Made by a program: the position numbers and the translations under genes. Shown here piece by piece: positions 1,525-15,710 of a DNA stretch of 64,000 nt. Source of the DNA: Armatimonadota bacterium (GTDB lineage Bacteria > Armatimonadota > JADLDR01). Position 1 is the first letter of the stretch; each line of letters begins with the position of its first letter. Below the pieces are notes generated by a model. That model had not been told where the DNA came from, did no database searches, and worked only from the letters and a program-made list of their open reading frames with translations. Where the stretch lies: NCBI GenBank assembly GCA_020846535.1, contig JADLDR010000033.1, positions 1-64,000 of the forward strand, written 5' to 3'.

Positions 1525-4266
1525 ATGGATTATCGCGAAACGCTCAATTTGCCGAAAACCGATTTTCCGATGAAGGCGGACCTGGCCCGCCGGGAGCCGG
1601 AGTTTCAGAAGTTCTGGGAGGAGAACAGGATTTATGAGAAGAGCCTGGAGGCGAACCCGAAGGGGACATTCATCCTCCATGACGGCCCGCCCTATTCCAA
1701 TGGCAATATCCATATGGGCCATGCGCTCAACAAGATTTTGAAAGATATTATCGTCAAATACAAGTCGCTGCAAGGGTATGCCGCCCCTTACGTGCCCGGG
1801 TGGGACAACCACGGGATGCCCATCGAGAACGAGGTGGCGAAGGAGTTCCGCAAGGCGCACAAGACCCCGACCCGCCTGGAGATGCGGAAACGCTGCCGGG
1901 AATACGCCGCCCGCTTCGTGGATATCCAGAGAGAGCAGTTCAAGCGGCTGGGGGTGCTAGGAGACTGGGATAACCCTTATCTCACGATGTCCACCGGCTT
2001 CGAATCCAAGATCATCGAGGTTTTCGGCGAGCTGGCGCAGCAGGGGTTCATCTATCGCGGCCTCAAGACGGTCAACTGGTGCATCTATGACGAGACAGCT
2101 CTGGCCGAGGCGGAGATCGAATACAACCTGAAGGTGTCCCATTCTATCTATGTGCGCTTCCCGCTCAAGTGGGACCCGAAGGGCCTGTTCGATAAGTCTC
2201 TGAACGCCTATACGGTCATCTGGACGACCACGCCCTGGACGATTCCCGCCAACCTTGCGGTGGCGGTGTCCTCCGGCTTCGATTATGTGATGGTCCGCTC
2301 GGGAAACGATGTCTACCTGTTGGCAAAGGCACTCCTGGAAAGCACCATGAAGGCCGCCGGGATTGAAGATTACCGGGTGGTGAAAGAACTGAAAGGAAGC
2401 GACCTGGAGGGGACGGTCTTCAAGCACCCGCTCTTCGACCGGGATTCGGCGCTGATCTTCAGCGGAGACGTGCGCCCGGACGAGGGAACCGGCGTCGTCC
2501 ATACCGCACCGGGACACGGCGAGGAGGACTTCCGCCTGGGACAGCACTACGGGCTGCCGATCCTCTGCCCGGTGGACGCATCGGGCCGCTTTACCGAGGA
2601 GGCCGGGCCGTTCGCCGGGCTGGTGACTCTCAAAGGCGGCGATGAGGCGGTGCTAGAGGCCCTCCGGACATCGGGCCACCTGATGGCCGAAGGCAATGTC
2701 GAGCATAGCTATCCGCACTGCTGGCGCTGTCACAACCCGACCATCTTCCGGGCCACCGTGCAGTGGTTCATGAATATCGACCACAACGGCCATCGGAACC
2801 GCTGCCTGGAGGAAATCCGGAAAGTCAAATGGTTCCCGCCGGAGAGTATCAACCGCATCTCCAGCATGGTCGGCAACCGTCCGGACTGGTGTCTGTCGCG
2901 CCAGCGGTCGTGGGGAGTCGGCATCCCGATCTTCTTCTGCAAATCGTGCGATACCGAGATCATGAGCAAGGAAAGCTGCGATGCGGTGGCCGCCCGCGTC
3001 AGCGAGGAAGGCTCGGATGCCTGGTACGAGCGCCCGGCGGAGGAACTGCTGCCGGAGGGCTTCGCCTGCCCGGAGTGCGGCGGAACGGAATTCACCAAAG
3101 AAACCGATATCCTGGATGTCTGGTTCGACTCCGGCTCCACCTGCCGGGCCGTCCTGGAGACCCGGCCCCACCTGTCCTATCCGGCGGATGTCTACCTGGA
3201 AGGCTCCGACCAGCACCGGGGATGGTTCAACTCGTCCCTGATGGTGGGAACCGGAACGAAAGGGCAGGCTCCTTACCGGCAGGTCATCACCAACGGGTGG
3301 ATGCTAGACGCCCAGGGCCGCACCATGCACAAATCGTGGGGCAACGTCATCTCGCCCCTGGAACTGATCCAGAAGAACGGGGCCGATGTGCTGAGGCTGT
3401 GGGTCTCCTCCACCAATTATTTCGAGGACGTGCGCCTGGGTGACGAAATCATCAAGCGCGTCACCGACGCCTACCGCCGCCTGCGGAACACCTTCCGCTT
3501 CCTGCTGAGCAACCTCTACGATTTCAATCCGTCGCAGGACCGGGTGGCCGCGGAGGATCTGATGGAACTGGATCGGTGGGCCATGCTCCGCTTGCAGCAG
3601 GTGATCGAGCAGGCTGCCGCCGCCTACGAAGGCTACGAGTTCCACCGCGTCTATCATACGGTGCATAACTTCTGCGCGGTAGACCTCAGCGCATTCTATC
3701 TGAATGTCCTGAAAGACCGCCTCTACGCCTCCGCGCCCGCCTCCCGGGAGCGTCGTTCGGCCCAGACCGTCCTTTTCGACCTTTGCAGTGCCTTGGCGCG
3801 CCTGCTGGCTCCGGTCATCAGCCATACGGCGGAGGAGGTCTGGCGCTACCTGCCCGGCGAAAGGACCGAGAGCGTTTTCCTCGCTGATTTCCCGCAGCCG
3901 GACGCTCGCTTTCAGGACGAAGCCCTGGCCGCCCTCTGGGAGCGCATCCGCGAGGCGCGCGATGAAGCCTACCGCGTCCTGGAGGAAGCCCGGCAGAGCG
4001 GCCAGATCGCCCAATCTCTGGAAGCCGCCGTCACCCTGGCCTGCCCGCCCGACCTTTATGAACTTCTAGAACCTTACGCCTCCCAGTTGAGCGAAGTCCT
4101 GATCGTCTCTGGAGCGAATCTTGTCCCGGCCCCGACCCTGGAAGTGACGGTCACCCCTGCTCCCGGCACCAAATGCGAACGCTGCTGGCTCGTCCTTCCC
4201 ACCGTCGGCCAATCCCGAGAGCATCCGGGATTATGCCAGCGGTGCGCGGATGTGGTGGGAAGGTAA
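1525..4266 (+). CDS. ileS: Isoleucyl-tRNA synthetase
   Basis: 913-aa class I synthetase that charges tRNA-Ile and edits Val in the cytoplasm. The HIGH-type motif appears as SNGNIHMGH near residue 60. The KMSKS-type motif appears as the variant MHKSWG near residue 600. A C-terminal zinc finger has CERC and CQRC pairs. Length fits the bacterial family. SD GAGGAAAAAAT precedes the ATG. An Ile-type T-box is 1.25 kb upstream, separated by rfbD and repeat A1. Whether readthrough from the T-box still controls ileS cannot be told from sequence alone; no clear separate promoter was seen in the 50 bp before the start. Confidence 0.97.
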
Positions 4267-8924: not shown

Positions 8925-9164
8925 GGCGCTCTCCTTGAAGGCTGATCCGCAGTGGAATTTTCCACTGTGTGCGATTATAACAACGGAGAGGGAGCGGTGT
9001 CAAGCCGAAGCCAGCCGATTGAAAGAGCGGGCTGATTTTCGCATCGCGTATCCCTGTTATTTTTCATTGAGAGAAAGGCAGAATTTCGAGAATCACCGCA
9101 TCTTTATTGATATACGGTTCGTTCAAAGAAATAGATTGGGATTCCATGATGAAGAGGAAAAACT

Positions 9165-9845
9165 ATGAACGAGCGGAATGAGCGTGAAGAGTTTCACCAA
9201 GCCCTCAAGGAACTGGAGCGTCAGCGAGCAGAGGCCCAAAAACGCCTGTCCGAGCAGGAAGCTGCGCGGCTCAGGCGCAAAGGTTTCCGGAAACAATTGT
9301 GGCGTTTGGGAGCGGCGGGAATTATCTTGTTGATGCTTCTCATTCCGCAAAGTCCTGTAAATATTGGCGCAAATTACTTGTTGTCGACCTGGCGACATTC
9401 CGAACTTCGAAAAGGATCGGAGTATCGTCTCCATTATCGCTCGAATGTTGCCCGGCTCAAAGAGATTCGCGACAGGCTTTCCAAAGATTCGGCGAGTTTA
9501 CAAAAATTATGGAAGAATCCTGGCAGCCATTCCGGTCAAGTATGGGCCGCGGCTTTGTTTTCTTCTCTCAGCGATGGGCAGATCGAGGAAATGTGGCGAA
9601 ATAAACGCGCTGCACGAAAGGGCTTACCTGGCCGCAGCCTCCGGCCCGAGCAGTTCCGGCTTCTGGCGCAAATCGTTTCCTCATACAATTCCGAGGAAAC
9701 GAACCGGAAAATTGATCTGGGCGACGCAACTATTCTCTTCGATCCTAACGCATCCTTTACATGGTTTTATACCGATAAGCTAACCGGGGAGGTGATTTCA
9801 GGGGGATGCGGTTATCGTCCTGAAGGATGGATGTCCGGCTCCTGA
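9165..9845 (+). CDS. Coiled-coil membrane protein of unknown function
   Basis: 226 aa. Residues about 1-45 are charged and predicted coiled coil (EEFHQALKELERQRAEAQKR). One hydrophobic span follows (LGAAGIILLMLLIPQ, about 48-62), then a ~160-residue extracytoplasmic or cytoplasmic tail ending in a Gly/Cys-containing segment (SGGCGYRPEGWMSG). SD GAGGAAAAACT precedes the ATG. It is the first gene of the AT-richer island and lies 53 bp before the Tat-targeted Cys-rich gene, in the same direction. I do not recognise a family. A role as partner or anchor of the Cys-rich product is only suggested by position. Confidence 0.65.
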   Translation: MNERNEREEFHQALKELERQRAEAQKRLSEQEAARLRRKGFRKQLWRLGAAGIILLMLLIPQSPVNIGANYLLSTWRHSELRKGSEYRLHYRSNVARLKEIRDRLSKDSASLQKLWKNPGSHSGQVWAAALFSSLSDGQIEEMWRNKRAARKGLPGRSLRPEQFRLLAQIVSSYNSEETNRKIDLGDATILFDPNASFTWFYTDKLTGEVISGGCGYRPEGWMSGS

Positions 9846-9898
9846 GAAGGGGTAGGCGTTCAGCGAACACATCGATATAAGCAATGGGGGAAAATCAC

Positions 9899-10498
9899 AT
9901 GAAAAAACGTGAAAAGAGTGCTCTAAATGATGAAAACTCATCGGTAGACCCAAAGGTAAAAGATGATTCAGAGGCACAGCAAGGAAGCAGCCTAACTCGT
10001 CGAAATTTTCTGGCTCGGAGTTCCGGCTTCTTTGCTGGAGGCGTTTTAGGGTTGCCTCTGCTCAGCACGCTAAACGCAAAGGAAGTTGCCAACCTTGCTA
10101 ACTCGCTGAGTAAGCCTAGCAGAGATCCTGTCATACAATCATGTAATCCCTTTTATTGCGCGACTAGCCATTGCACTGATGACCATTCTTGTAGTGGCTC
10201 AAGCCCATTCGATAATGACTGCACAGGCGGTTTCGCAGGTTGCAGCGCCGACTACGAATGTCATAACGGTTTTTGCACCGGCAATTTCTGTAAAGGAGCA
10301 TATGATTGCGGTTACGAACACTGTGGAGCCTTTCAGACAGGCGACTGTGAAGGGGCTTGGTGTACTGGCGTTCATTGTGATGATTGGTATTGTTATTCGG
10401 GTCATTGTACTAACCCTAAGCAGGTATGTGGAGGGGAGTATTGCTTTAATAAACATGAATGTGACCTACCTGGGGAATATAGCCCTCCTACCTGCTAA
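9899..10498 (+). CDS. Tat-exported 20-Cys protein, putative radical SAM substrate
   Basis: 199 aa. The ATG at 9899 is preferred to 9884 because GGGGGA lies 8 nt before it. Residues about 31-60 form a twin-arginine signal (LTRRNFLARSSGFFAGGVLG, then LPLLSTLNA). The mature C-terminal ~118 residues hold 20 Cys, mostly spaced by four residues (CNPFYC, CHNGFC, CTGNFC, CEGAWC, CTGVHC, CDDWYC, CYSGHC, CGGEYC) and usually preceded by an aromatic residue, His or Asp/Glu. It is followed by a pseudopilin and a radical SAM/SPASM enzyme, the classical layout of a peptide precursor and its maturase. Tat export would let a protein modified and folded in the cytoplasm leave the cell. That it is a modified (RiPP-like) product is inference. 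Confidence 0.75.
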   Translation: MKKREKSALNDENSSVDPKVKDDSEAQQGSSLTRRNFLARSSGFFAGGVLGLPLLSTLNAKEVANLANSLSKPSRDPVIQSCNPFYCATSHCTDDHSCSGSSPFDNDCTGGFAGCSADYECHNGFCTGNFCKGAYDCGYEHCGAFQTGDCEGAWCTGVHCDDWYCYSGHCTNPKQVCGGEYCFNKHECDLPGEYSPPTC

Positions 10499-10520
10499 TC
10501 GTGAATAAAGGAGTAGAGTT

Positions 10521-11096
10521 ATGCATAGAGAGGGTAGTAACGGATTCACCTTAATAGAATTACTGGTAGTAATTGGGATCATCATGATACTCGTGGGATT
10601 GGTCATAGAAACAATGAGTCATGCACGAGAGATGGCCCGCCAAACAACATGCATCAGTAATTTAAGACAGATCGGACAGGCAACAATGATGTACACCCAA
10701 GACTGGGGCGATCTGCCTAATGGTGATAATTGTATTACTGCCCTCTATAATTCTTATACAGGACAAACTCAAGAGATATGGATGTGCCCTGATGATCATC
10801 CGACTCCTCCGGTCAGACCGCCTCAACGCTTCAGCTATGAATATTCATGGTGGTGGGATTGGCAGCGACCGAAAGTGACCAATGCAGAAGCAAAGAGAAA
10901 GTTAGGCTTTACGAATTTTCCGGTCTTTTTTTGTAGTTGGCATACTATAGGGAACGGGACAAGCCAACATCATATGACATATTTTCTGGTTCTCTTTACA
11001 GACGGTAGAGTGGAGCGATTTATTGCGCCTTACCGGAAAGGATGGGGAGCATTATATTCTGGTATATGGCAAAAATACAGACAAACTATAAACTGA
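10521..11096 (+). CDS. Pseudopilin-like protein with prepilin cleavage motif
   Basis: 191 aa. A type IV prepilin/pseudopilin N-terminus (GFTLIELLVVIGIIMILVGL) with a Gly before Phe as the cleavage site and Glu at +5. After the helix come CISNLRQIGQATMMYTQDW and a C-terminal FTDGRVERF. This is the arrangement of the 'prepilin-like, DUF1559/H-x-DG' proteins that are numerous in Armatimonadota and Planctomycetota. It has a SD (AAAGGAG) and lies between the Cys-rich gene and its radical SAM enzyme. It may act with the type II secretion or pilus machinery; its place in this cluster is unexplained. Confidence 0.82.
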   Translation: MHREGSNGFTLIELLVVIGIIMILVGLVIETMSHAREMARQTTCISNLRQIGQATMMYTQDWGDLPNGDNCITALYNSYTGQTQEIWMCPDDHPTPPVRPPQRFSYEYSWWWDWQRPKVTNAEAKRKLGFTNFPVFFCSWHTIGNGTSQHHMTYFLVLFTDGRVERFIAPYRKGWGALYSGIWQKYRQTIN

Positions 11097-11129
11097 AATT
11101 ATTTTAATTTATATATAAAGGAGAGCATA

Positions 11130-13409
11130 ATGCAATTTTCTTTATATCCAGGGACCGGAAGATGCATTGAATGTCAACAACAGTGTAATGGTGAGGGAGG
11201 GAAGTTTATTCATCTTCCTATCTTCTCACCTAAATTGATGGAGGAGAAAGAATTTCGTATTCTACTGGAAGATAAAGCTAAGCCAAAAAAACTTACTTGG
11301 CTAGATGAACGGCGCGTGTTAGATGCAATTGCTGAGAATGTTGAGAAAACGGCTGAGACTCTGCCTCCTATTTCTCACATGGAATTAATGATCTCAGAAG
11401 ATTGCAACTTACGATGCGATTATTGTTTTATATACGAAAAAAATCCCAGCAATATGCCACTCGATATAGCTTTCAGAGCAGTTGATCTATTGCTAGCAGA
11501 ATCTAAACATACACAGGACATAGGCATATTGTTTTTCGGCGGAGAACCAATGCTGGGTTTTGCAGCGATTCAATCTATTATAGAATACTCTAATCAGAAA
11601 GCATTAGAATTACAGAAGAATATAACTTATTCTATGACTACCAATGGAACCTTATTTGATGAGGAGAGAGTCGCTTATCTTAAAAAACATGGTTGCACAC
11701 CTCTATTAAGCTTGGACGGCCCAAAAGAAATACATGACATGCATCGCAAAACGAAGGACCGACAAGGTTCGTTTGATCAAGTAATCAATAATTTACCTAC
11801 ACTTCTGAAATATTTCTCTACAATACAGGTACGGATTACACCTCATCCTGATACTGTTGATAAGTTATATGAAAGTTTCTGCTTTCTATTAGGTCAAGGG
11901 TTGCGTAATTTTATCATCGGACCGGCACACGGGATAAAATGGAGCAGTGAGAGATATGGGATTTTTTTTGAACAGATGGCTCGCATTTTTGACCTGCAAC
12001 GCCAGATTGAGTTTCAAAAGGACCCCATTATTCTAAGCAATTTCCACCCGCGATTTAACCAAGGATGGGGTTGCCGTGCTGGATTTGGCTATATAGCTAT
12101 TGCTGCGGATGGTAATATTTATCCTTGTTCTTATTTTATCGGGCAAAGGGAACTTCGAGATAGAACTTGTATAGGTAATGTTCGAGATGGTATTGACCGT
12201 CCAACTGTACGTGCCGAGTTTATACTCATCAATCAACAAAGACTATCACAATGCCAAGAATGTAACTTACATAACATTTGTAGTGGTGGATGTCCGGGAG
12301 TAAATTTTACATTAACGAATTCACTGGTAACCGCTTCTGAAGTTACCTGTCAGGAGATTCAGACTTTTATACGTCTCTGGAGCTATCCTATTGTATACTT
12401 TGTATCCGGGCAGCGAATAGAATTCGCTGCTAGGGCTCTGGCTATCGTTGATGAGTTATATAAATTGTATCCGGGAATCGATGTACAGTTTGTCTCATAT
12501 GGAAAAGGTGTCGAAGGCTTGAACGGAGAGAGAGCCAAAGTTATTGGTGTAAATATAGCACAAAAACATAATTTTTTTGAGATCATGAAGGATGTTGCGA
12601 ACATTATTCATCAGCAACGACCCTTTCTAGCAATTTGCGATAGTGAGTTTGCGCCACTTCCCGCATTTAAATTCTTCGGTATCCCAACAATATTTATTGC
12701 CAATTGGTTCTCAGGCGCAGATGATTTCACCATGCAGACGCTTTCTTACGCAGATACGATTTTATTTGATGGCTCAAAGGAATTATTTAAAATTCCAGAA
12801 TACCTAATAAACAAGGTAAAATATATAAACCGTCTTCACCGAAACTTTGCTTACTTTAAAGATGATCGAGAACGTGCAAGGGATGAACTCGAACTTGACC
12901 CTCAAGCGACAATTATTTCCGTATTCCCGGAAATTTGGAATGAAAAGATAGTACCGTCTTTTGAACTCGTAATGTCAGCTTTTGATCAGTTACCTAAAGG
13001 TCATCAGTTGCTACTTTGGGTGACAAGTGGAGAAAACGAGATCGTACACTCAACTAATAAAAGCGTGGTTTTCAGACAAAGTGATAAGCTCAATGAGCAT
13101 CTGATAGTCGCTAGCGATTTGGTCATAAGTAAATGTGACTACATGTTGATGCGTGATTTAGAAGCTTTAAATATTCCTGCAATAATCTTAACGTCCGGTT
13201 TTAATACCATCGGAGAATTATACGCCAATAATACTCCAAATTTTCTATCACTTAGCCTGAGAACACTTACTACTGATATGCTCCTAAAGACCATTCAAAA
13301 TGTTTTAGAACGGCCAAAAGTATATCCTTCCAATCCTAGCAATCACTTAGAAGGGATAACCCAGGCCGCCCATGCGATTGCCAGCCTGTTACCTAAATTT
13401 GAAAACTGA
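11130..13409 (+). CDS. Radical SAM/SPASM enzyme fused to GT-B-like domain
   Basis: 759 aa. The radical SAM cluster motif CNLRCDYC (C92, C96, C99), FFGGEP, MTTNGTL and LSLDGP define a peptide-modifying radical SAM domain (about 83-300). A SPASM domain follows with C315, C333, C375, C378, C384, C388 and C407 for auxiliary Fe-S clusters. The N-terminus has a further CIECQQQC. Residues ~420-759 look like a two-lobed GT-B glycosyltransferase of the MurG/UGT type: GQRIEFAARALAIVDEL, RPFLAICDSEFAPLPAFKFF, then ASDLVISKCD and LEALNIPAIIL. I know of no described peptide maturase with this fusion. SD AAAGGAGAG precedes the ATG. It likely modifies the upstream Cys-rich protein; a second, glycosylating step is inferred from the C-terminal domain. 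Confidence 0.85.
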   Translation: MQFSLYPGTGRCIECQQQCNGEGGKFIHLPIFSPKLMEEKEFRILLEDKAKPKKLTWLDERRVLDAIAENVEKTAETLPPISHMELMISEDCNLRCDYCFIYEKNPSNMPLDIAFRAVDLLLAESKHTQDIGILFFGGEPMLGFAAIQSIIEYSNQKALELQKNITYSMTTNGTLFDEERVAYLKKHGCTPLLSLDGPKEIHDMHRKTKDRQGSFDQVINNLPTLLKYFSTIQVRITPHPDTVDKLYESFCFLLGQGLRNFIIGPAHGIKWSSERYGIFFEQMARIFDLQRQIEFQKDPIILSNFHPRFNQGWGCRAGFGYIAIAADGNIYPCSYFIGQRELRDRTCIGNVRDGIDRPTVRAEFILINQQRLSQCQECNLHNICSGGCPGVNFTLTNSLVTASEVTCQEIQTFIRLWSYPIVYFVSGQRIEFAARALAIVDELYKLYPGIDVQFVSYGKGVEGLNGERAKVIGVNIAQKHNFFEIMKDVANIIHQQRPFLAICDSEFAPLPAFKFFGIPTIFIANWFSGADDFTMQTLSYADTILFDGSKELFKIPEYLINKVKYINRLHRNFAYFKDDRERARDELELDPQATIISVFPEIWNEKIVPSFELVMSAFDQLPKGHQLLLWVTSGENEIVHSTNKSVVFRQSDKLNEHLIVASDLVISKCDYMLMRDLEALNIPAIILTSGFNTIGELYANNTPNFLSLSLRTLTTDMLLKTIQNVLERPKVYPSNPSNHLEGITQAAHAIASLLPKFEN

Positions 13410-13474
13410 CCAAATATAAGAGACGCAATGATTTATATTTTTTGACCGTTTCGCTACTTGTAAAGGTTGTGAAT

Positions 13475-14923
13475 TCAGGCTGATGATCGTTCTATAAGCC
13501 ATTGATAAGCATAATTACACTCTTCATATAAGGTACTAGTGAACCAGATGCCACTTTCAATAAGAAATAGTACCAGGTTACATTCTACAGGGTCCGGGAT
13601 ATTGATATCGTAGTGAGCTAAATAAGAGCAGTAATAACAGCCTCCTCCACATATATATCGAGCCCAACATGATTGACAATTCTCTTTTTGCTCAATATAG
13701 GAGCTATAACCGAACTTGATGTCACGTTGTGTGTTAAACCCTTGCCATACATCACCGAGTTTGAAATCATCCATATTAACAAAATTATCGCATGGATAAA
13801 GGCTACCGTCCGGCCCTACGGCAATCATGTCATGAGCGGCTGAGCAACGATAGCCATGTCTCATTCTAATGCGAGCCAAGGGCTTTAGAACAAAGCGACC
13901 AAAATAATCATAATGGTTAATACAGGCTGCCAACGTCTTATTATCACCGGACTGAGCCTTTTCTATTAACCAATTAGCATGCTCCCAATAACCTTTTTTA
14001 AGGGACTCGATGTTCTCTTTTGTAAAGGCAAATGGGCTATCACTAGCAGCCCGCACGGGTCTGATAACCATTGTTGTAAATCCGAGTTGAAGAAGGTGTT
14101 CCGCCACTCTCTGAGGATAAGGGTTTTCAGGTGTCAGCGTTGCGCCACCAGCTATATAGGGAAATAATTCTAGGGTGTGGCGTAGGTTTTGAGTTGCCGC
14201 CTGATATGTGCCTTTACCCTGTGTGTCGATACGCCAAGTATTATGAATATCGGATGGGCCATCTATGCTGTATCCAGAGACGATAATCTCCTTTTTCGCT
14301 AACTCCTGAGCTTTTTCAAGAGTTAAAAGAGTACCGTTAGTTATAATACTCAAAAGCATTTTAATTCCATGATTTTGTTCTAAATACTTTCGATACTCAT
14401 TGGTAAATTCAAGCAGATCCCAGCTTATGAAGGGTTCGCCTCCAGGATTAAACGCTATAGTACCTTGCAGTTTGCTATCATCTAGGTATTCTGCAAACCA
14501 GTCGAGAGACTGCTTTATTGTTTTAAGGGACATGATATTCTTGTTGGTTTTTCGTGCGTTTTTTACAAAGCAATAAGAACAGGATAGATTGCAGGCAAAC
14601 GAGGTATGCAAAAGAAGTATTGAAGGTGAAGGGCTTCTGTCTTTCGGTGGCGGCGGTAGTTTATGCTGATCGAATAACATCAAAAGGGAATCTATATCCG
14701 CAGTAGCCTGTTCAACCTGAACGCGTGAATAATCATCGAGTAGTTGCATGGATGATGATGTTTTTTCTTCTGTAAGGCAAGTGCATATAATAATATAGCC
14801 TAATTCACTGAGAGAAGCAAACAACCCAGAGCAAGCATCAAAAATGAATGCTCGGTTATCTGGAGTCTTAAACGGATGAAGTGAATACGATCTATTAGTG
14901 GAAATGGGGATCATGGCTTTCAT
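13475..14923 (-). CDS. Radical SAM/SPASM peptide maturase
   Basis: 482 aa counted from the ATG at 14923, which has AAAGGGA upstream; the open frame reaches a TTG at 14953. Residues ~1-95 form an N-terminal domain without Cys clusters (SLHPFKTPDNRAFIFDACSG), as in Cys-rich-peptide maturases. The radical SAM motif is CNLSCSYC, followed by FNPGGEP, IITNGTLL and YSIDGPSDIH. The SPASM part has YRCSAAHDMIAVGPDGSLYPC, then CQSCWARYICGGGC and a final C. It is encoded 23 nt after the ECF sigma gene and converges on the radical SAM-GT fusion. Probably the second modifying enzyme for the same Cys-rich substrate; the reaction is unknown. Confidence 0.86.
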   Translation of the reverse strand: MKAMIPISTNRSYSLHPFKTPDNRAFIFDACSGLFASLSELGYIIICTCLTEEKTSSSMQLLDDYSRVQVEQATADIDSLLMLFDQHKLPPPPKDRSPSPSILLLHTSFACNLSCSYCFVKNARKTNKNIMSLKTIKQSLDWFAEYLDDSKLQGTIAFNPGGEPFISWDLLEFTNEYRKYLEQNHGIKMLLSIITNGTLLTLEKAQELAKKEIIVSGYSIDGPSDIHNTWRIDTQGKGTYQAATQNLRHTLELFPYIAGGATLTPENPYPQRVAEHLLQLGFTTMVIRPVRAASDSPFAFTKENIESLKKGYWEHANWLIEKAQSGDNKTLAACINHYDYFGRFVLKPLARIRMRHGYRCSAAHDMIAVGPDGSLYPCDNFVNMDDFKLGDVWQGFNTQRDIKFGYSSYIEQKENCQSCWARYICGGGCYYCSYLAHYDINIPDPVECNLVLFLIESGIWFTSTLYEECNYAYQWLIERSSA

Positions 14924-14946
14924 TGTAACAGATTCCCTTTCTATAT

Positions 14947-15504
14947 TCAGCAATAATAAATTTCATATTGGTTATTATTCCCTTGATATCCATCGAGATG
15001 GGTTTTCATCTGCCGTCTTGAGTGATATAGCCTTTTTTCAACTGTTGTGACCGGTATATGCAATAAACGACTTATCTCGCCGCAGGAGAATCCGTAGATA
15101 TAATGGAGTAGCACGACCGATTTGTTCTGTTCAGATAATGAATTCACGGCCTCGGCAACATCGATTTTCGCCTCCTCTTGATGCCACTCTTCCAGCATAA
15201 TGGATAATCGGCATTCATCGAAACAAAACGGCACATCCTTGCGCTGTCTTTGCCACATTTTACACTCGTTCGCTGCGATAGACAACAGCCATTTCAACAG
15301 ATACCCCGGTACTTTCAACTGATGTAATTTTAAGAAGGCTTTGATAAACGTTTCCTGAGTAATGTCTTCCGCCGCACTGAGGTTTCTGGTTCTGCTATAT
15401 ACAAAAGAGAGAACATAATGATAATGTTTTTCGATAATACAGTCGAATAATTCACTTTGGCCGTTTAAAATATATTTTATTAAATCATTCTCATCGTTAT
15501 CCAT
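14947..15504 (-). CDS. ECF-type RNA polymerase sigma factor
   Basis: 185 aa. Region 2 (LFDCIIEKHYHYVLSFVYSR, then AAEDITQETFIKAF) and region 4 (LSEQNKSVVLLHYIYGFSCG, EISRLLHIPVTTVEKRL) are clear and no extra domains are present, so it is an ECF sigma factor. The start at 15504 is set by CGGAGG six nt before ATG; the frame runs on to 15540. No anti-sigma gene is next to it. It is followed directly by the second radical SAM gene. It is a good candidate for controlling the whole island, including the convergent Cys-rich operon, but no shared promoter motif was verified. Confidence 0.88.
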   Translation of the reverse strand: MDNDENDLIKYILNGQSELFDCIIEKHYHYVLSFVYSRTRNLSAAEDITQETFIKAFLKLHQLKVPGYLLKWLLSIAANECKMWQRQRKDVPFCFDECRLSIMLEEWHQEEAKIDVAEAVNSLSEQNKSVVLLHYIYGFSCGEISRLLHIPVTTVEKRLYHSRRQMKTHLDGYQGNNNQYEIYYC

Positions 15505-15710
15505 CACAAACCTCCGGAACGGTTCTTGCGGTAAATCCATTTAAAGATAAAGGAAGTGATAATCTATTATATCAACCTTGAAATTCATTGTCAACACCCT
15601 TAATCTAATTATTTCGGTGAAAGATTGCTTGTCGAATTCTCACACCCCTATCGGCCCGGTCATCGGCCAATTATCCCATATTGCCGATTATAACCGCCCT
15701 CTTCCCGGTT

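Follow-up and report, generated by a model that had tools for sequence, protein, structure and literature searches.

We describe here a gene cassette that probably makes an exported, covalently cross-linked cysteine-rich protein, in which repeated aromatic-(x)-Cys units would be joined by a radical S-adenosylmethionine (SAM) enzyme before export by the twin-arginine translocation (Tat) pathway. The cassette lies in a 64,000-nt stretch of contig JADLDR010000033.1 from an Armatimonadota bacterium (hereafter the window; its genome is G000), and 291 genomes of the phylum were surveyed. Six linked open reading frames (ORFs) were confirmed in the window, at or within a few bases of their predicted limits. 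They form two convergent groups: a membrane protein (memP), a Tat-signal Cys-rich protein that is the candidate substrate, a pseudopilin and a first radical SAM/SPASM enzyme (rSAM1) on the + strand, and an extracytoplasmic function (ECF) sigma factor and a second such enzyme (rSAM2) on the - strand. The original prediction of a six-gene island with this convergent layout was borne out, and the recurrence of the same gene order in another genome places it beyond chance. Of the limits proposed for the island, 9165-15504, the start stands but the end does not, as the sigma factor runs to about 15540. The block is indeed AT-richer, with a GC content of 0.38-0.49 from 9 to 16 kb, whereas the rest of the window has about 0.61.

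The candidate substrate (9884..10498, +) has 204 aa and, as had been predicted, exactly 20 Cys, with gaps of mostly 5 or 6 residues from one Cys to the next. No Pfam or NCBIfam model matched it above cut-off; its sole match was the general Tat-signal model TIGR01409, at 11.9 bits and under the cut-off of 16.7. Its leader contains the twin-arginine motif TRRNFL (9995..10012, +). With an S/T-R-R-x-F-L-type motif, a hydrophobic stretch and TatC encoded in the genome, the protein is a predicted Tat substrate. Six further substrates share the twin-arginine motif of the window leader. R39, R40 and F42 were invariant across the aligned substrates, and the leaders share R-R-x-F and then a segment resembling LFGxxGFDAVAxxVLxR.

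In order to assess residue enrichment in the Cys-rich core (10142..10495, +), Cys positions were kept fixed and the remaining residues were shuffled. In the window substrate, F/Y/W/H occurred at +4 of 15 of the 20 Cys (4.3 expected, p 0.0002) and at -1 of 10 (4.6 expected, p 0.0028), giving C-x3-[FYWH]-(x)-C units in which an aromatic residue or His stands directly or nearly ahead of the next Cys. The widespread substrate type had F/Y/W at -2 in 105 of 146 Cys, 81 of them Phe, against a shuffled mean of 23.3 (standard deviation 4.2). Across 23 gapless units of four long substrates the aromatic residue was conserved in 21, the Cys likewise in 21 but the middle residue nowhere, compared with 25 of 159 other columns. 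The repeat unit is thus aromatic-(x)-Cys, present in about 5 to 30 copies with variable linkers, in substrates of 138-437 aa that hold up to 36 Cys at about 430 aa. The CxxxxC pattern originally noted holds for the window as gaps of 5-6 residues, but the signature shared among substrates is the aromatic-(x)-Cys unit instead.

Searching the phylum with no query but the window substrate yielded marginal matches only. Five substrates found later by a leader-and-core profile (G046:C13, G074:C170, G072:C4, G072:C330 and G135:C28; G, genome; C, contig) repeated the aromatic enrichment (p 0.0005-0.0015); as homologues retrieved with a profile covering some of the core itself, they amount to a partial hold-out only. 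No aromatic enrichment was seen in the Cys-rich proteins tested from three genomes lacking rSAM1 (G051, G054 and G078). In G072, several aromatic-x-Cys proteins of about 400 residues lie on separate contigs (loci L194 3477-4679, L195 1996-3279 and L119 10408-11700) and are apparently served by few maturases.

A search of relatives with rSAM2 led to a locus in a different family of the same phylum (L025, on G046:C86). Its order is that of the window, namely memP, Tat Cys-rich protein, pseudopilin, rSAM1 and rSAM2, with identities to the window of 42% for rSAM1, about 30% for the substrate and 26% for memP. G074:C32 holds substrate, pseudopilin, rSAM1, rSAM2 and a separate family-2 glycosyltransferase, and G046:C76 has two tandem cassettes, one of them frameshifted. 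The rSAM1 proteins form a clade in the tree (support 100/99), present in 10 of the 291 phylum genomes (G000, G008, G046, G057, G072, G074, G088, G161, G189 and G194). Near-full-length members scored above 480 bits on the clade profile, and the next outside matches at most 266; the G189 sequence, a contig-end fragment at 411 bits, was assigned by score only. The clade was unseen outside the phylum in that search of 397 genomes, about 291 of them from the phylum, and a scan of named genomes with rSAM1 returned two remote loci only.

Twelve clade loci had readable flanks: the window, G046:C86, the two cassettes of G046:C76, G074:C32, G161, G088, G194:C178, G194:C137, G072:C375, G072:C451, whose contig holds only the start of the substrate, and G057. 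At G008:C35, G189:C624 and G074:C66 the flanks are cut by contig ends, and these loci are outside the count. A Cys-rich neighbour was found at all 12, with a Tat signal in 11, and at none of six loci of the sister clade of rSAM1. Conversely, the aromatic-x-Cys substrates found lie in rSAM1-carrying genomes, with the single exception of G135. The proposed pairing of the enzymes with the Tat Cys-rich protein thus withstood the refuting conditions originally set for it and is supported both in linkage and in specificity, and we infer that the enzymes act on this protein.

The same neighbourhoods bear on another explanation, in which the core is disulfide-bonded or metal-binding and the target of the radical SAM enzymes is a different one, such as the pseudopilin or another neighbour. 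Exported Cys-rich proteins are commonly disulfide-bonded, and a pseudopilin or propeller gene also adjoins rSAM1. However, beside the rSAM1 clade this companion gene is variable but the Cys-rich protein constant, the F-x-C unit is kept despite variable spacing from one unit to the next, and the relatives of rSAM1 act on Cys-rich peptides. We consider this explanation decidedly unlikely.

rSAM1 (11130-13409, +) is a 759-aa fusion, whose radical SAM/SPASM part (11130..12398, +) carries CxxxCxxC at residue 92 and a complete set of SPASM cysteines. Family tests used Pfam and the NCBIfam release of June 2026. Both rSAM1 (PF04055 8e-19, SPASM 3e-5) and rSAM2 (PF04055 5e-13, SPASM 3e-4) match PF04055 and PF13186 and have the radical SAM and SPASM cysteines, which were invariant in an alignment of 11 rSAM1 sequences. 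The best maturase family for rSAM1 is PapB (NF047865), with 255.4 bits for the window protein, 262.3 for that of G161 and 244.8 for that of G194 (cut-off 340), and the SCIFF model TIGR03974 gave 177.6 bits (cut-off 425). PapB and SCIFF maturases, the nearest to rSAM1, form thioethers (PMC9413430), and by this homology a thioether is the most likely bond; it would run from the sulfur of Cys to a carbon other than the alpha carbon in a residue close by, with the aromatic partner as the obvious candidate. Aro-Xaa-Asn and Aro-Asn are recognised motifs of radical SAM cyclophanes (PMC9062424), and a C-C bond is therefore the main chemical rival. rSAM1 would then form a three-residue cyclophane, in which the aromatic ring is bonded to the Cys beta carbon two positions further along and the thiol stays free for metal binding or later disulfides. 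This version appears unlikely to us, given that rSAM1 scores far higher on the thioether families than on the cyclophane-forming families YhhB (97 bits), FxsB (79) and GrrM (73).

Several observations weigh against cross-linking by rSAM1 as proposed. rSAM1 falls under the cut-off of every NCBIfam equivalog among the matches listed. The PapB core motif is C-x3-D/E, and PapB rejected the transposed Asp-Cys order (PMC9413430). D/E at +4 of Cys occurs at only 0.7-0.9 times background in both substrate types. The Cys-rich peptide of G057 lacks a Tat signal, and G135 has an aromatic-x-Cys substrate with no rSAM1 detected. The -1 and -2 spacings do not match one split of the rSAM1 tree; the covariation of enzyme clade and spacing takes two changes on the tree, as low as in 20 and 33 of 500 shuffles, and beats the shuffles only modestly. 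AlphaFold2 gave no usable fold for one long substrate (predicted local distance difference test score, pLDDT, 29.6) or for the C-terminal domain of rSAM1 (pLDDT 39.7). Because the units show no Asp/Glu enrichment at the position used by PapB, the aromatic residue is most likely the bonding partner, or failing that an element for recognition.

Taken together, we propose that the precursor carries a twin-arginine leader ahead of a core made up of aromatic-(x)-Cys repeats, at which the PapB-like rSAM1 would abstract hydrogen in the cytoplasm and install intramolecular bonds, either thioethers or, as the chemical alternative, three-residue aromatic-to-Cys carbon bonds. Where rSAM2 is present, it may add a second modification, bind the leader or present the substrate by its N-terminal domain. 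The cross-linked, folded product would then leave through Tat. Tat transports folded proteins, which fits a product cross-linked before export. QhpD, which introduces cross-links into a protein subunit while that subunit is still in the cytoplasm, awaiting export, is a precedent (PMC7876137). The gene between substrate and rSAM1, for a DUF1559 pseudopilin or a propeller protein, suggests surface placement, and this partner probably places the product at the cell surface.

The cassettes could instead constitute a mobile, polymorphic system for ribosomally synthesized and post-translationally modified peptides (RiPPs), in which the Cys-rich core is freed from its leader as a peptide toxin or signal. 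Such an antimicrobial or signalling role would agree with the AT-rich, apparently acquired block, with copies in G046 and G074 that are tandem, multiplied or decaying, with the several substrate genes of G072, with the RiPP maturases among the enzyme relatives and with the rSAM2 homologues that adjoin Rhs genes. It is nevertheless rather improbable, since the substrates reach about 430 aa and 36 Cys with a Tat signal instead of a short leader, and no peptidase/ABC exporter or immunity gene was recognised within the cassettes.

The C-terminal domain of rSAM1 (12408..13406, +) is derived from glycosyltransferase family 28 (GT28): it is 26% identical (E 1e-21) to proteins of G043/G079, one of 352 aa, that match PF04101 (1.6e-17). 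A fused GT28-related domain, as in the radical SAM-GT fusion originally described, is thus present, but its catalytic motifs are lost. In the alignment GQRIEF replaces GSGMGH and KCDYMLMRD replaces GGHSTLWE, so neither the GxGH nor the donor-site GGH(S/T) motif is intact. The domain is therefore probably inactive, and we read it as a non-catalytic relic or a binding domain. No other rSAM1 protein examined, including that of L025, carries it.

rSAM2 (13475..14953, -; 492 aa), a SCIFF/PapB-like enzyme, scored best on the SCIFF model TIGR03974 (198.3 bits, cut-off 425), and its profile aligns nearly full-length with the SCIFF maturase 5wgg, including an N-terminal part that rSAM1 lacks. The G074 rSAM2 scored best on TIGR03906 (QhpD; 213.5 bits, cut-off 453). 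Cassettes with rSAM2 occur in the window, G046 and G074, and G057 has a relative of it; at the other loci rSAM1 is the only such enzyme. Two different maturases are therefore not the rule, and rSAM2, the sigma factor and memP are optional parts of the cassette. In G057 an FGE-sulfatase-type protein (L027 7363-8163, +) lies between the rSAM2-like and rSAM1-like genes. rSAM2 homologues or fragments also adjoin Rhs core ends (L068 6415-9801, L069 5957-9112, L070 6707-7707), and the Rhs tips of G074 are Cys-rich.

The ECF sigma factor gene (14947..15540, -; Sigma70_r2 1e-10, Sigma70_r4_2 7e-13) overlaps the start of rSAM2. Ahead of it lies a perfect sigma-70-type promoter-like site, TTGACA-17-TATAAT with an extended -10 (15566..15594, -), a pattern match only, and no such site was found directly upstream of memP on the + strand. 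It is plausible that the sigma/rSAM2 pair is under housekeeping expression and that the sigma factor drives the substrate operon. memP (9165..9845, +; 226 aa) has a charged, probably coiled N-terminus, a single hydrophobic segment at about residue 49 and then a mostly polar domain, with no Pfam or NCBIfam match above chance. Its homologue at the same position in L025 matched with a BLASTP E value of 3e-7 in that single comparison, and memP was found in only 2 of the 291 genomes, both cassette carriers. A decayed memP lies in G046 beside a sigma-like gene on contig C43, together with genes for a DUF1573 protein and for a Cys-rich protein whose N-terminus is Sec-like (L123 6822-8693, -). The idea of memP as an anti-sigma factor rests on this degenerate copy and was rejected as too weak.

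The pseudopilin (10521..11096, +; 191 aa, DUF1559-type, PF07596 5e-11, PF07963 2e-5) occupies the same position in L025, L067, L024 and others. In G072 and G194 a propeller protein lies between substrate and rSAM1 instead. A small, conserved acidic protein precedes the substrate gene in G074 and G046 (L067 12717-13046, -, and L193 537-866, -, both 109 aa; L024 about 3080-3400, -), and the L067 copy had no Pfam match. Rfam and tRNA scans of the window gave no matches. An imperfect 26-nt direct repeat (73%) flanks the AT-rich island at 8956-8981 and 15669-15694; these repeats overlap promoter-like sites and were unconvincing as insertion marks.

Tentatively, and with more doubt than the explanation proposed above, one may picture a new class of radical cross-linking on the scale of a whole protein. 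Every aromatic-(x)-Cys unit, of which a polypeptide has up to about 30, would become a small ring in the cytoplasm, and the Tat-exported rod or sheet would be mounted on the surface via the dedicated pseudopilin or propeller. If this is true, the reach of radical SAM cross-linking would widen beyond short RiPP peptides: exported proteins longer than 400 residues would gain about 30 bonds apiece in the reducing cytoplasm and then leave by a folded-protein exporter. It would be a disulfide-independent route to hardening surface proteins, perhaps a new protein-hardening chemistry, and would offer enzyme chemists a new substrate signature, Aro-x-Cys/Aro-Cys, with several natural enzyme-substrate pairs.

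Compared with known systems, the PapA/PapB ranthipeptides (NF047865) are alike in that PapB is the best-scoring family for rSAM1 and its relatives (245-262 bits) and in having repeated Cys-containing units with several bonds per substrate. They differ in that rSAM1 is below the 340-bit cut-off, the C-x3-D/E core is absent here, and the candidate substrate combines a Tat signal with aromatic-(x)-Cys units. Outside the phylum, a CTLN-[QK]-P-x-G-K-G-A-G repeat peptide (L160 4508-4768, +) lies directly before a PapB-like radical SAM enzyme. SCIFF/ScfB (TIGR03974, 5wgg) shares the near-full-length alignment of rSAM2 and a Cys-rich target, whereas both enzymes here are below 425 bits and the cassette has no short six-Cys SCIFF peptide. 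L162 and L163, among the nearest loci outside the phylum, do have a SCIFF-type peptide beside the enzyme.

QhpD of quinohemoprotein amine dehydrogenase (TIGR03906) likewise is a radical SAM enzyme acting on a protein subunit, which is cross-linked in the cytoplasm and exported afterwards (PMC7876137). In contrast, the window rSAM1 (171.3 bits) and rSAM2 (161) and the G074 rSAM2 are all under its cut-off, QhpC exits by an ABC exporter and has Cys-to-Asp/Glu bonds, and no quinone or haem subunit genes were recognised at the cassette. A second, different pair of Tat Cys-rich protein and radical SAM enzyme is found at L074 4758-5528 (+) and L075 10229-10840 (-), where Tat proteins with about 25 Cys and C-[DN]-x-C repeats lie beside a QhpD/Nif11-like SPASM enzyme. 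The likeness to His-Xaa-Ser (Hxs) systems on which the original prediction had drawn is that of two radical SAM enzymes beside one repeat-type substrate; membership is contradicted by the HxsB scores (TIGR03978, 99.1 and 89.5 bits, cut-off 370), by the aromatic-(x)-Cys repeat and by a second enzyme that is not constant. In Aro-Xaa-Asn cyclophanes (triceptides), aromatic residue and partner are also two (or one) residues apart, in repeats, but the partner here would be Cys, the enzyme is nearest to thioether formers, and the predicted substrate is much larger and Tat-routed. Cys-every-fifth peptides (CefA/CefB, NF038107), on which we found no paper, resemble the many successive window Cys five residues apart; the CefB scores are 101.7 and 79.1 bits against a cut-off of 600, and most relatives here are variably spaced. 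In the open-licence literature we also found no paper on the substrate and none that links radical SAM precursor peptides to the twin-arginine pathway, and together with the lack of a substrate model this upholds the description of the cassette as undescribed. As judged from sequence, the substrate fits no described family, and the cassette belongs among the radical SAM-modified RiPP/protein systems.

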